Positions 12,343-33,524 of a DNA stretch of 34,409 nucleotides are shown in pieces. This stretch comes from Verrucomicrobiaceae bacterium. Lineage in GTDB: Bacteria; Verrucomicrobiota; Verrucomicrobiia; Verrucomicrobiales; Verrucomicrobiaceae. The position numbers and the translations under genes are program-made. The stretch lies in NCBI GenBank assembly GCA_027487315.1, contig JAIYDW010000038.1:1-34409 (forward strand), in the 5' to 3' direction. A model generated the notes under the pieces. That model searched no databases, was not told the origin of the DNA, and worked only from the letters and a program-made list of their open reading frames with translations. The first letter of the stretch is position 1. Every line of letters starts with the position of its first letter.

Positions 12343-12359
12343 TCCCACCATACACTCAA

Positions 12360-12380
12360 CGCAATCCGCAATCCGCAATC
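12360..12380 (+). repeat. Heptamer tandem repeat, unit CGCAATC (three units)
   Basis: Three exact copies of CGCAATC, ending three bases before the ATG of the TPM-domain gene. This is the same unit as at 13835-13862 and 33345-33407. Confidence 0.8.
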
Positions 12381-12383
12381 CCA

Positions 12384-13067
12384 ATGCCCCCCCGCCTCCA
12401 CAGCCTCCTCCTCGCTCTCACTCTCCCCGCTCTGGCTGAGCCCTCCCTCACCTACGTCAACGACACCACCCGAGCCCTCGACGACACCACCCAGCTCGCC
12501 CTCGAACAAGAACTCACCCAGTTCCATCGCGACACCGGCGTCCTCCTTACCGTGCAGGCCGTCTCCTACCTTGACCCCGGCGTCACCATGCGCACCGCCG
12601 CCCGCCAGGCCCGCCTCGCCACCGCCTCCTCCGGCCCGGTCGCCATCATTATGGTCGATCGCGGCAAAAACGGCCTCGGCATCTCCCACTCCCCCGAACT
12701 CTGGCAGCGCTACCCCCTCCCGGACATGGTCGAAGTCCTCCGCCACTCCCTCAGCGAAGCCTCAGACGACACCCTCCCCAGCCAGGAAAAACTCCTCGCC
12801 ACCGCCCGCCTTTGGATGACCGAAGTCCGCGCCCTCGAATCCCAACGCCAACTCAGCCTCGCCCCCTTCCAAAAAAAGGAAACCCCTCTCCTCCTCGGCT
12901 TCCTCTCCATCCTCGCCCTCGGCGGCATCACCGGCCTCCGGCTCGCCACCCAAAAACGCTTCCGCGTCGGCCTCCAAAATCAGCGCTTCCACTTCCCCGA
13001 CATCGTCATCGGCCAAAGACTAGGCGCCCCCCACGGCGCCCGCGTCATCCTGCCCGAAGAACCCTGA
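12384..13067 (+). CDS. Secreted/anchored TPM-domain protein
   Basis: A 227-residue protein with an N-terminal signal peptide (MPPRLHSLLLALTLPALA, cleavage near 18). A domain of about 130 residues resembles the TPM (DUF477, YgcG-like) fold: 'VNDTTRALDDTTQLALEQEL', 'FHRDTGVLLTVQAV', then 'GPVAIIMVDRGKNGLGISHS'. One membrane helix follows (~169-189, LLLGFLSILALGGITGLRL), then a short basic tail. The conserved glycines and the aspartate of VDRGKNG fit the TPM pattern but are weaker than in canonical members. TPM proteins are linked to photosystem assembly or envelope processes; the role here is unknown. It has its own promoter and a CGCAATC array directly before the start. Its stop lies one base before a 163-bp palindromic element. 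Confidence 0.65.
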   Translation: MPPRLHSLLLALTLPALAEPSLTYVNDTTRALDDTTQLALEQELTQFHRDTGVLLTVQAVSYLDPGVTMRTAARQARLATASSGPVAIIMVDRGKNGLGISHSPELWQRYPLPDMVEVLRHSLSEASDDTLPSQEKLLATARLWMTEVRALESQRQLSLAPFQKKETPLLLGFLSILALGGITGLRLATQKRFRVGLQNQRFHFPDIVIGQRLGAPHGARVILPEEP

Positions 13068-13068
13068 A

Positions 13069-13231
13069 CCCGAATTCCGCGATTCGAAGTGGCTCAAGCG
13101 CTGCCTTGCTTGCCGTTCCAAGGCTTTGCGGCTCGCAGTCCCTGTATCTTGACGATACTGGGCAAGAGCTGCGGAGTCTTGGAACCGCTATGAAGGTGCC
13201 GAATGGGCCGCTTCCAATGGCGGAGTTCGGG
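13069..13231. mobile_element. 163-bp full-length palindromic (giant hairpin) element, copy E1
   Basis: The ends are imperfect inverted repeats: the left end CCCGAATTCCGCGATTCGAA matches the reverse complement of the right end, CCCGAACTCCGCCATTGGAA, with four mismatches in 20. Pairing continues inward: a GTTCCAAGGCTTTGCGGCTC arm against its imperfect complement near 13160-13190, closing on GTATC-TTGAC-GATAC. The whole element can fold into one long hairpin. No open frame is supported. It fills the gap between two convergent genes, starting one base after one stop and ending 11 bases before the other, so it may also act as a bidirectional transcription stop. Related copies lie at 28097-28339. 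Confidence 0.75.
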
Positions 13232-13242
13232 ATGAAATGAAG

Positions 13243-13779
13243 TCACTTCGCACTCCCCGCCAGCGCCTTCTTCACCGCCGCGATCAAAGCCGCATCATCC
13301 GGCTCCGTGCCCGAGTCAAACCGCGCCACCACCGCCCCATCCTTACCCACCACGAACTTCTCAAAGTTCCATCCCACCTCACCACCCTCAGCCGTCAGCG
13401 CCTCAAACAGCGGATGCTTCCCCGCCCCCTTAATGACCACCTTCTCCGTCAAAGGAAACGACGCCTGATACCCCGTGGCACACGCCTTGATCTCCGCCGC
13501 CCCACCCGGCTCCTGCCCGCCAAAATCATTGCACGGCACCCCCAAAACCACCAACCCCTCACCCGCAAACGCCTCCTGCAGCTTCTGCAAACCCGCATAC
13601 TGCCCCGTGTAACCACACTGCGACGCCACATTCACAATCACCAGCGCCTTCCCCTCATGCGCCTTCAACGCCCCCTCCTGGCCATCCAGGGTCGCAATCG
13701 GAATCGAATGAATCGGGTCAGCAGCCATAACCCCCAACGTCAAGCATCCCATCAAACCAGCAACCATCAAAAGTGTCAT
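13243..13779 (-). CDS. Exported Cys-type glutathione peroxidase
   Basis: A 178-residue protein: a signal peptide (MTLLMVAGLMGCLTLGVMAA) and a thioredoxin-like peroxidase domain. The catalytic set is Cys55 in VNVASQCGYT, Gln89 in PCNDFGGQEPG, and Trp137-Asn138 in VGWNFEKFVV. The peroxidatic residue is Cys, not Sec. It should reduce hydrogen or lipid peroxides in the periplasm, probably with thioredoxin-like reductants as in other bacterial enzymes. An AGGGAG ribosome site lies 6 nt before ATG 13779 and would abut ATG 13785, so 13779 is preferred. It is followed downstream by the 163-bp hairpin element. Confidence 0.88.
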   Translation of the reverse strand: MTLLMVAGLMGCLTLGVMAADPIHSIPIATLDGQEGALKAHEGKALVIVNVASQCGYTGQYAGLQKLQEAFAGEGLVVLGVPCNDFGGQEPGGAAEIKACATGYQASFPLTEKVVIKGAGKHPLFEALTAEGGEVGWNFEKFVVGKDGAVVARFDSGTEPDDAALIAAVKKALAGSAK

Positions 13780-13834
13780 TTTCATCTCCCTTAAAACGCC
13801 CCCAACCTCAAAAAAGTTGCGCCTTACGACCCAC

Positions 13835-13862
13835 CCCAATCCGCAATCCGCAATCCAAAATC
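13835..13862 (+). repeat. Heptamer tandem repeat CCCAATC/CGCAATC (three clear units plus one degenerate)
   Basis: CCCAATC, CGCAATC, CGCAATC and a degenerate CAAAATC between two minus-strand genes. The right edge lies 2 bases from the stop codon of the small conserved protein gene. Confidence 0.75.
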
Positions 13863-27439: not shown

Positions 27440-27493
27440 GCTTGTGCTGCCAATGACGGCGGCAGATTCGCCCTCAGCCGCTCCCGTTTTTAG
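27440..27493 (+). mobile_element. Right-arm fragment of a 163-bp palindromic element
   Basis: From about 27440, CTTGTG(C)TGCCAATGACGG, GGCAGATTCGCCCTCAGCC and a CGTTTTTAG end match the right arm of the element at 28177-28339 almost base for base. The left half of a full copy (27331-27439) is not complementary to it, although it begins with GAATTCC like copy E1. It appears to be a decayed or chimeric copy. The rest of the gap to the pilin gene holds nothing recognisable. Confidence 0.6.
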
Positions 27494-28096: not shown

Positions 28097-28176
28097 CCCG
28101 AATTCCGCGATTCGGAGTGGCTCAGACACTGCCTCGCCTGCCGTTCCCAGGCTTTGCGGCTCGCAGTCCCTTTATC
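28097..28176 (+). mobile_element. Left-arm fragment of the palindromic element (E1 subtype)
   Basis: This stretch matches 13069-13148 closely: the same CCCGAATTCCGCGATTCG start, the same GGCTTTGCGGCTCGCAGTCC core and the same end near TATC. The right arm is absent; a complete element of the second subtype begins immediately at 28177. Confidence 0.7.
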
Positions 28177-28339
28177 CTAGAAACGGAAATGGAAAGGGAT
28201 GAAGAGGCGTCGTGCTTGGTTCCACAAGGCTTCCCGGTTCGCAGCGGTTGCATCGATAAGATGATGCCACCCGAGAAGCGGGATGCCTTGTGGGGCCAAT
28301 GACGGCGGCAGATTCGCCCTCAGCCATTTCCGTTTTTAG
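28177..28339. mobile_element. 163-bp palindromic (giant hairpin) element, copy E2
   Basis: The terminal inverted repeats CTAGAAACGGAAATGG and CCATTTCCGTTTTTAG differ at one base. Inner arms also pair: GGTTCCACAAGGCTTCCCGG against the complement of GCGGGATGCCTTGTGGGGCC. Length equals that of copy E1, and both share an internal GCTTG...GTTCCA..AGGCTT..CGG.TCGCAG core, so they are two subfamilies of one element. No protein-coding capacity is supported. Confidence 0.72.
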
Positions 28340-28609
28340 GTTTACACGTGGCTGGGGGAAGCGGGGAACAACTTGACAAAAAGCGACGTGGTCAGTGCTC
28401 AATCATTCGAAATGCTTCGTCTATCGCTTGCCATCGGCTGCCTCGCGATAGGATGGCTATGGGTCATTTCAATGGGTCGGGTGTTCGCTGGCACCTTCCG
28501 AAAGCACCGGACCAGTAGCATTTGAAGCCGATCAAATCCCACTGCGACTCCCCACTCTCTCACTCTCTACCCAAAGGCACCCGCCGACTCCTTGTCAGGC
28601 GACCCGCGT
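28340..28609. other. Non-coding gap before the VapC remnant
   Basis: No gene is supported. A 37-codon frame (28412-28525, hydrophobic LSLAIGCLAIGWLWVI) lies here after a TTGACA at about 28373, but neither a matching -10 nor a ribosome site was seen. Confidence 0.3.
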
Positions 28610-29090
28610 TCACATCACACTAACCACCTCAAGTTTCATCGCCTTGGCCAGCCGCGCTTGCTTCAGATCCGCCGTGATAAACACCTCCGCATTCAACACC
28701 AGCGCCGCCGCCACCTGCTGAATGTCCAAAGCCCGTGTCCCAAGTCGCGTTGTGTGCGTCTCCGAAAGCCGCATCGCCTCACGAATCATCTCCTCCCACT
28801 TCACTGGCGTCGGCACCAACACCTGCCGCCGAATCAACGCCTGCAACCTGCCCTCGGCCTCAACCTGTTGCTTCTTGATTTGCCCTGGCTTGCCAGAACC
28901 CGCCGCCGCCAGGTAACTTCGCAGCCGCAGCGCGTTTCCCACCTCCAGTTCATGCAGCGGCGTGTACATCAAACGTGGCCGCCCCAGCTTCATGTAGGCC
29001 GCCTTGCACCCTTCACTGCGATTGTCTCTAGCGATGAGGCTGACAACCACACTGCTGTCCGCATAGACCGGTTCTCGAAAAGATTGTCAT
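28610..29090 (-). pseudogene. vapC: VapC-type PIN-domain toxin with a 1-base frameshift near the start
   Basis: The main frame (28610-29050, readable upstream to 29086) encodes a PIN domain: YADSSVVVSLIARDN, TPLHELEVGNALRLR, TRALDIQQVAAALVLNAEVF and ITADLKQARLAKA, giving the acidic set Asp, Glu, Asp, Asp. The first Asp (YADSS) lies before the only in-frame start codon, a GTG at 29050. An ATG at 29090 begins M-T-I-F and then leaves the frame. Removing one T from the TTTT run just after it would give MTIFREPVYADSSVVVSLI, a normal VapC N-terminus. So the gene is disrupted by a +1 change in a homopolymer: true pseudogenisation, slippage, or a sequencing error. VapC toxins are tRNA- or rRNA-cleaving RNases. 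Confidence 0.72.
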
Positions 29091-29149
29091 TTTGATCCGG
29101 CGAGCGCAGTGGCTTCAGTGGCAAGGAAGTCGTGCAGCCCGCTATTAAA
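29087..29149 (-). pseudogene. Possible 3' remnant of the VapB-type antitoxin
   Basis: A frame ending at TGA 29089-29087 overlaps the vapC ATG as ATGA, the usual antitoxin/toxin overlap. It reads ...HDFLATEATALAGSK and is open for only 21 codons before an upstream in-frame stop, so most of an antitoxin would be missing. Confidence 0.35.
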
Positions 29150-29310
29150 TCAATAGCTGGCAAGCAGCTGACGCAGCCAATGAGGCCGCTCTGCCGCCAC
29201 CCAAGGTGGTGCAACCCCTCGCCCGCACTCCCTCGTCGAGCCAGCCCCTCCCCCCCTCCCCATCAGCAAATCCTTCGCCCATTCCCGCACCCCAAAAAAA
29301 ACGCCCCCCC

Positions 29311-29361
29311 CGGAGGACAGGTCTCCCGACCTGTCAACGGCCAGCGGACTTTCCAGTCCGC
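29311..29361 (+). repeat. REP unit, double hairpin with GGAG head (copy a)
   Basis: GGAG, then GACAGGT-CTCCC-GACCTGTC, spacer AACGGCCAG, then CGGACT-TTCC-AGTCCG. It lies 23 bp downstream of the RAYT stop codon. Identical units occur at 30118-30168 and 33126-33176. Confidence 0.85.
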
Positions 29362-29384
29362 CCCCAACACCATCAACCATCCCC

Positions 29385-30053
29385 CTACCCCCCAAACCCA
29401 AACCCTGCCTTCTCCCAAGACGGATGCACCCAGCGAATCCACTTCTCCTCAGGAATCTGCGCCTTCTTCGGATTGTTCCCAACGTAACGCACCACCTTCC
29501 ACAAATGCGCAGCATCTCGGACCAGCGTATCATAGCTCTCCGGTTCCCACACCGCGCCAGTCCTCCCAAGACGCCGATTCATCTGCCGCGCCATGAAACC
29601 CTTCCAAGACTTCAGCACCTCCGACAACTCGTAGCCGGCAAAAGGCTGCACCGTCACATGAACATGATTCGGCATCACACAGTAGCTCGACAAAAAATAG
29701 CGCACCCCATCAAAATGACGCATCGCCCGGGTCACGACGCTGGCACAGGCCTCGTCACGCAGCCAGCACTCCCCGGAGCCCGCATCCAGCCACTCCTCCA
29801 CCCGCCGCAGGGTTTCACGAAAAAGCTGCTGCCAGTCCGCTTCATCCCGAGGCTCAGGATGAGCCCGTTCCCACTCCGCGCGAAACGCCTCTAGCGCCAC
29901 CAGCTTCTCCTGCGGCAGAGAGTCAGCCAGCCGAAAAGTAATGAAGTACGTCGCCCCCTCCTGGGTCCAATGCGGCAGCTTCCGACGGCTTTTCACGATA
30001 GGCTTCGACCAGTCAAGCCCCACAAAATTCGGCGGACCCTCCACAAACGACAT
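29385..30053 (-). CDS. REP-associated tyrosine transposase (RAYT, Y1 HUH family)
   Basis: A 222-residue Y1-transposase protein. The HUH motif is His130-Val-His132 in YCVMPNHVHVTVQP; Tyr174 in EPESYDTLVRD is the probable nucleophile, followed by VVRYVGNNPKKAQ, a typical RAYT end. The N-terminus (RRKLPHWTQEGATYFITFRL) also matches RAYTs. These single-copy relatives of IS200/IS605 transposases cut and join REP single-stranded DNA and are thought to spread REP sequences. The same double-hairpin REP lies 23 bp downstream and 65 bp upstream, in direct orientation, which makes this the probable source enzyme for that REP family. The ATG at 30053 is preferred; upstream residues in the frame look non-coding. 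Confidence 0.88.
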   Translation of the reverse strand: MSFVEGPPNFVGLDWSKPIVKSRRKLPHWTQEGATYFITFRLADSLPQEKLVALEAFRAEWERAHPEPRDEADWQQLFRETLRRVEEWLDAGSGECWLRDEACASVVTRAMRHFDGVRYFLSSYCVMPNHVHVTVQPFAGYELSEVLKSWKGFMARQMNRRLGRTGAVWEPESYDTLVRDAAHLWKVVRYVGNNPKKAQIPEEKWIRWVHPSWEKAGFGFGG

Positions 30054-30088: not shown

Positions 30089-30168
30089 CCGGAGGACAGG
30101 TCTCCCAACCGATCACCCGGAGGACAGGTCTCCCGACCTGTCAACGGCCAGCGGACTTTCCAGTCCGC
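30089..30168 (+). repeat. REP units upstream of the RAYT gene (copy b, one and a half units)
   Basis: A degenerate half unit (30089-30112, GGAGGACAGGTCTCCCAACC) is followed by a complete double-hairpin unit (30118-30168) identical to copy a. Confidence 0.85.
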
Positions 30169-30236
30169 CATCCCCAACCCCCTCAAACAAAAACCCCTCT
30201 CCCTCCCCAATCCCCACTCCCCAATCCCCACCCCCC

Positions 30237-32993: not shown

Positions 32994-33125
32994 CAAAAGC
33001 AAAGGAAAGGAAACCGCATTCATAAGCAAAGCCAAAGCACGGGAAAAATCACCCAATCGATCCGCCCCAAGGCACGTCACCCCTACCAGCAATTCCAAAG
33101 CCATCAACTCCCCAAATTCACCCCC

Positions 33126-33176
33126 CGGAGGACAGGTCTCCCGACCTGTCAACGGCCAGCGGACTTTCCAGTCCGC
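33126..33176 (+). repeat. REP unit, double hairpin with GGAG head (copy c)
   Basis: Identical to copies a and b, in the 531-bp gap upstream of the FG-GAP gene. That gap contains no supported gene and is built largely of repeats. Confidence 0.85.
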
Positions 33177-33231
33177 CATCCCAACACCCTCAAACAAAAA
33201 CCCCTCTCCCTCACCACTCACCACCCCCCGT

Positions 33232-33299: not shown

Positions 33300-33344
33300 A
33301 CTCCCCCCCCCACATCCTCATACCCCACTCCGCCCTCCGCCCTC

Positions 33345-33407
33345 CGCAATCCGCAATCCGCAATCCGCAATCCGCAATCCCCAATCCCCAATCCCCAATC
33401 CCCAATC
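33345..33407 (+). repeat. Heptamer tandem repeat, CGCAATC x5 then CCCAATC x4
   Basis: Nine uninterrupted 7-nt units with a clean switch from CGCAATC to CCCAATC after the fifth. This is the longest array of this family in the window. Confidence 0.9.
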
Positions 33408-33416
33408 CCCACCCCC

Positions 33417-33439
33417 CGGAGGACAGGTCTCCCGACCTG
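33417..33439 (+). repeat. Half REP unit (copy d)
   Basis: Only the first hairpin of the GGAG family (GGAGGACAGGTCTCCCGACC) is present, then the similarity stops. Confidence 0.8.
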
Positions 33440-33524
33440 CCCCCATCCCATAACGCCTCCCCCTCTGCGGCCATCCAATCTCTCGCGGTGCCAAACCCTC
33501 ATCCCCCCTCTCCGCCCTCCCCCC

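Follow-up and report, generated by a model that had tools for sequence, protein, structure and literature searches.

The window analysed here, the whole 34,409-nucleotide stretch of DNA from a Verrucomicrobiaceae bacterium (genome G000, 256 contigs), carries a type A hairpin element between two convergent genes and a type B hairpin element further downstream, together with partial copies of both types (Table 1). The type A element is flanked by a plus-strand ORF ending at 13067 and a minus-strand ORF ending at 13243, the latter encoding a glutathione peroxidase (Pfam). These ORF ends agree with the initial annotation, which had placed the element one base past one stop codon and 11 bases before the next, and had described it as a single, nearly full-length imperfect hairpin. 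Indeed, a 181-nt segment including the element folds with a minimum free energy of -106.3 kcal/mol, and none of 200 dinucleotide shuffles folded as well (z = -11.2). In the same-genus genome G001, the orthologous site holds a 37-nt type A remnant followed by a complete type C element, suggesting that the site at 13069 probably already carried an element before the species of G000 and G001 split.

Table 1 Hairpin elements, remnants and target-site duplications in the window.
Feature	Position	Strand	Remarks
Left target-site duplication CTGAA	13064–13068		Holds the stop codon of the upstream plus-strand gene
Type A hairpin element, 163 bp	13069–13231	+	Ends CCCGAATTCCGC / GCGGAGTTCGGG; fold, copies, covariance-model match of 151 bits
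Right target-site duplication ATGAA	13232–13236		4/5 letters match the left one
Type B right-arm fragment, 53 bp, solo remnant	27441–27493	+	91% identity to query 118–170
Left half of a second type A copy	28097–28175	+	90% identity over 80 nt (query 1–80); interrupted by type B
Left target-site duplication TTTAT	28171–28175		Flanks the type B element
Type B hairpin element, 165 bp	28176–28340	+	Ends CCTAGAAACGG / CCGTTTTTAGG; fold, copies, duplication
Right target-site duplication TTTAC	28341–28345		4/5 letters match the left one

A relative of the type A element had been annotated at 28177–28339 with a length of 163 bp. It is a real hairpin element (z = -9.4), but its target-site duplication sets the borders at 28176–28340 and the length at 165 bp; most other copies of type B are 166 bp long. 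Full-length alignment upheld the earlier view that the two window elements have a common core and differing ends. A second type A copy had been overlooked: its left half directly precedes the type B element, which was inserted into it, and its right half is absent beside the type B element. In G001 (contig C40), a type B copy likewise splits a type A copy, and taking out the type B copy plus 5 bp yields a full 163-bp type A element with 88% identity.

With a covariance model built from types A to D, 43 distinct element places were located in G000. Type A is complete there at three loci, present as one half copy and reduced to an end fragment at two more, and type B has 18 full copies, one truncated copy and others interrupted by contig ends, with 93–97% identity to the window copy in nearly all cases. 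The model also found more type C copies, and no longer element bounded on either side by type B ends was seen in G000. The 43 places also include 76–86 bp type C versions without the core (L333–L336 on contigs C22, C27, C147 and C213). In three of these the same deletion, between GCTCAAG direct repeats, is present, and one has an exact TTCAA duplication. Of the other genomes from this genus, types A and B are both present in G001 and G003, and neither was matched in G002. Type D, a relative at ~72% identity, occurs in the same-family genomes G028, G042, G050 and G019, and among the matches listed in a pattern scan of named genomes, the carriers were Verrucomicrobiaceae, several of them labelled Prosthecobacter debontii. 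The family comprises at least four subtypes (A–D), all of which align end to end.

A covariance-model search of 384 genomes of the class gave matches in nine, G000 included and eight outside the family, a minimum count because strict filters were used. Outside the family, the matches in G217, G206, G322, G296, G205, G349 and G218 look genuine and come from at least five other families (f16, f17, f31, f36 and f48). Locus L342 is likewise a real element copy. The match in G148 (L196), which has neither CC..GG ends nor a duplication, looks spurious and was rejected as a member. The members outside the family are 161–164 bp long, most with CC...GG ends and several with exact duplications (CTAAG, TTAAA and ATAAT). 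Overall, 83 of 84 distinct model-aligned copies are 161–166 bp long, a narrow range that arises partly by construction since the model favours these lengths, although the duplications independently support the borders in 62 of 83 copies. The initial annotation had made its reading depend on further copies in the genome and its relatives, and such copies are present in both.

Exact 5-bp target duplications flank 43 of 83 copies, against a mean of 2.9 with shuffled flanks, and duplications matching in at least four of five letters flank 62, against a mean of 14.8. The target has the form NTNAN, its second position being T and its fourth A in more than 95% of the duplication letters, and the element ends are conserved as CC...GG. 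The comparison with empty sites proposed earlier gave direct evidence of insertion: a related Verrucomicrobiaceae MAG carries a single TTTAA at the position orthologous to the filled type B site on contig C72 of G000. Insertion sites therefore differ between close relatives, one allele being filled and the other empty. An ORF-span test for insertion into genes did not discriminate, because GC-rich frames are open anyway. These data show that the elements insert as discrete units, that their 5-bp NTNAN target is duplicated on insertion, and that one element can insert into another. We also observed composites of one hairpin and a linker ending in CAAGTTAGTCGGGAGG in Prosthecobacter-related genomes (L072, L081, L088, L089 and L093 in G019, G028, G042 and G050) and in G206 (L192, L200 and L202), with nearly the same right end in the two families. 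In several cases the 5-bp duplication lies outside the composite, so that a hairpin can act as one end of a larger unit.

The fold is conserved between subtypes. RNAalifold on types A–D gave a consensus of 64 pairs, 35 of which show two-sided compensatory changes between subtypes, so that the differences between the arms, which would have spoken against the initial reading had they not been compensatory, are abundantly so. Of the cells in this alignment, 95.2% are paired. Compensation is seen in 182 cells, compared with 66 in column shuffles, which ignore relatedness, and 16–41 with slid partners, a control that leans in favour of the structure because the structure was derived from the same sequences. 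All four types have their internal loops in matching places. In a consensus fold over the most distant members the apical part was lost, probably owing to poor sequence alignment there. Within subtypes, the frequency with which private changes preserve pairs is close to the expectation for transitions in types A (p = 0.69), D (p = 0.45) and C (p = 0.09); in type B it is slightly in excess (p = 0.04), which counts against neutral decay. Judged from these substitution patterns, the private changes suggest that resident copies decay roughly neutrally after insertion.

The hairpin is also asymmetric between strands. For a strand-neutral list of mismatches, each element was aligned to its own reverse complement. 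In types A–D, with orientation fixed by sequence homology, G.T mismatches number about 8 per element and A.C mismatches 2.5, and G.G/C.C and T.T/A.A mismatches are balanced in types A and C. Between subtype consensuses, 23 distinct column pairs are G.T and four are A.C (p = 3e-4), and the sense consensus folds 24–30 kcal/mol better than the antisense under RNA parameters. Only types A–D serve as a strand test, because the orientation of the distant members came from the model, and the model prefers the strand that folds better. Private or singleton mutations do not lean towards a G.T excess; the trend is the opposite if anything (C>T 0.16 per C and G>A 0.24 per G). With rough gene calls, no orientation bias relative to neighbouring genes was detected. 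These patterns suggest selection on the sense-strand fold in source copies, with little or none in resident copies, and the folded strand may be RNA or single-stranded DNA alike.

A PF01609 profile search of six carrier genomes led to a candidate partner, a 1505-bp insertion sequence (IS) in G042 that encodes a 468-aa IS1380 transposase (NF033539, E = 2.4e-76, above the cut-off) and is bounded on each side by a perfect 14-bp end, CCCGGATTCCGAAG, and a TTAAA duplication. These 14 nt also form the left end of the type C element of G001 and of L183 in G000, and hairpin L195, from another family, agrees with the left end of this IS at 21 of 23 nt. A second copy lies in G042 and a very similar IS1380 start in G007. 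Target duplications of the IS1380 family are 4–5 bp, and that of the hairpin elements is 5 bp, as in the G042 IS. Moreover, type D begins with CCTAGATTC, as does the IRL of ISEcp1, CCTAGATTCTACGT, ISEcp1 being a member of the IS1380 family (PMC7864471). Past the terminal ~23 nt, similarity between the IS ends and the hairpin arms does not exceed that of shuffles, and the interiors do not match. IS1380 elements were also found in a PF13701 search of 59 relatives, mostly with unrelated ends, and those of G349 and G322 have ends that differ from the hairpins of the same genomes. The IS1380 transposase models had no match in G000 (a draft) or G003, no IS1380 transposase was found in the carriers G217, G205 and the single-contig G218, and the genomes searched yielded no IS whose ends are those of type A or type B; since most of these genomes are MAGs that break at repeats, absence of IS1380 is weak evidence. 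The end matches of type C, L195 and type D favour an IS1380-type transposase acting in trans, and an IS1380-family transposase is the best partner candidate, with matching ends for type C and nearly so for L195 but none for types A and B. In G014, two IS1380 copies (L137 and L160) have ends CCCGCATTTCTCATAC and apparent 4-bp CTAG/CTAA duplications, which count against this partner.

The hairpin elements resemble several known systems in part. They share with IS1380 elements (ISEcp1 and relatives) the CC-starting ends, the end matches of types C and D and a short AT-rich target duplication, but they are without transposase, are about 163 bp long, form a hairpin over the full length and have an unrelated interior. 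Like ERIC, they are multicopy intergenic imperfect palindromes of 100–200 bp, but ERIC differs in length, sequence, ends and target duplication. Integron attC sites are likewise imperfect palindromes whose fold favours one strand; in contrast, the hairpin elements have target duplications and CC...GG ends, and no integron context was seen. TIMEs duplicate 5 bp of target and are, like the hairpin elements, miniature and found in mosaic composites. They derive from Tn3 (PMC4133298), whose inverted repeat is 38 bp and carries GGGG (PMC7864471), and membership was rejected because the hairpin ends are CCC/CCT. REP/RAYT palindromes are 20–40 bp and tagged with GTAG or CGTC (PMC3733652); this class was rejected as well, REP having no target duplication whereas the 163-bp element has one of 5 bp. 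Bacterial MITEs such as Nezha, Chunjie, RUP, NEMIS and QMITE are short, non-coding and multicopy, with terminal inverted repeats, target duplications and foldable transcripts (PMC10969869). The hairpin elements are equally short and non-coding (161–166 bp, a full-length palindrome with no transposase inside), with terminal inverted repeats, target duplications, an empty allele and multiple dispersed copies. In contrast to these MITEs, they are held at 161–166 bp over several families of a class, and have a strand-specific wobble fold, conserved internal loops and subtypes with different ends on one core.

Rfam gave no match above threshold in the window, and a known structured RNA family was rejected for lack of any match above the gathering score; an E-value search of six loci returned sub-threshold matches only, mainly to long-hairpin miRNA models. 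Phage and plasmid searches gave nothing useful, and searches of the open-licence literature on MITEs with IS1380 or Verrucomicrobia returned no account of the family. The proposal of a non-autonomous family with subtypes that corresponds to no named repeat is therefore well founded, given the 43 places, at least four subtypes, duplications, empty allele and nesting. The elements are a new family of MITE-like elements, of which the strand-specific fold and the narrow length range are the unusual feature.

We consider it probable that these elements are MITE-like non-autonomous DNA transposons of ~163 bp, mobilized by IS1380 in trans, with a fold that matters at the propagation stage and resident copies that are neutral. 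An IS1380-family DDE transposase would act in trans on the ~14–23 bp ends, the fold of one strand, as RNA or single-stranded DNA, would be required during propagation, and an inserted copy would have no selected host role and would decay neutrally. The same mobile element could instead be moved by a non-IS1380 transposase, such as IS1634 or another DDE family, since several carrier genomes have no detected IS1380 and types A and B no matched IS; we find this unlikely in view of the type C (14 nt) and L195 (21/23 nt) ends, which match the IS1380 end, and the same 5-bp NTNAN duplication.

Two other readings concern the hairpin itself. Template-switch repair can make quasi-palindromes more perfect, and a palindrome over the whole length would fit an inverted duplication of an IS end whose symmetry comes from such repair alone, with the fold unselected. 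However, types A to D retain their internal loops at corresponding positions, the wobble is strand-specific, which is not expected from symmetric correction, and the interior has no match to known IS ends; we disfavour this origin and regard it as quite improbable. Strand-specific G.U-type pairing and conserved internal loops could also mark a host-serving structured RNA or terminator, an ERIC/REP-like 3'-UTR element that spreads by transposition and is retained for a regulatory role. This is very doubtful, as resident copies decay roughly neutrally, show no orientation bias to neighbouring genes (on rough gene calls) and occupy sites that differ between close relatives. Within the preferred reading of MITE-like transposons, a wider proposal is put forward tentatively as a possibility: a class-wide mobile element might carry a folded RNA or single-stranded DNA of fixed length (~163 nt) and defined strand that is required for its own propagation and not for the host, with selection acting on the fold in source copies alone and inserted copies released from it.

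Bacterial MITEs are commonly seen as decayed insertion sequences, with the hairpin as a by-product of the inverted repeats. Here, length, internal loops and strand-specific wobble are kept over deep divergence while single copies decay, which offers a testable case for a role of the folded strand in transposition. In addition, annotators of Verrucomicrobia genomes gain a defined repeat family, as yet without a name, that lies between genes and breaks assemblies.

Other repeats also occur in the window. A second interspersed repeat of ~150–170 bp (29061–29209) has many copies in the genus at 79–95% identity, and sometimes directly adjoins hairpin elements (L103 and L068). A REP-like short repeat, CCCGGAGGACAGGTCTCCCGACCTGTCAACGGCCAGCGGACTTTCCAGTCCGC, is present in several copies (29294–29389, 30101–30196, 33109–33204 and 33398–33442), and tandem 7-mer runs (GCAATCC / CCCAATC) lie at 12345–12385, 13820–13860 and 33330–33408.
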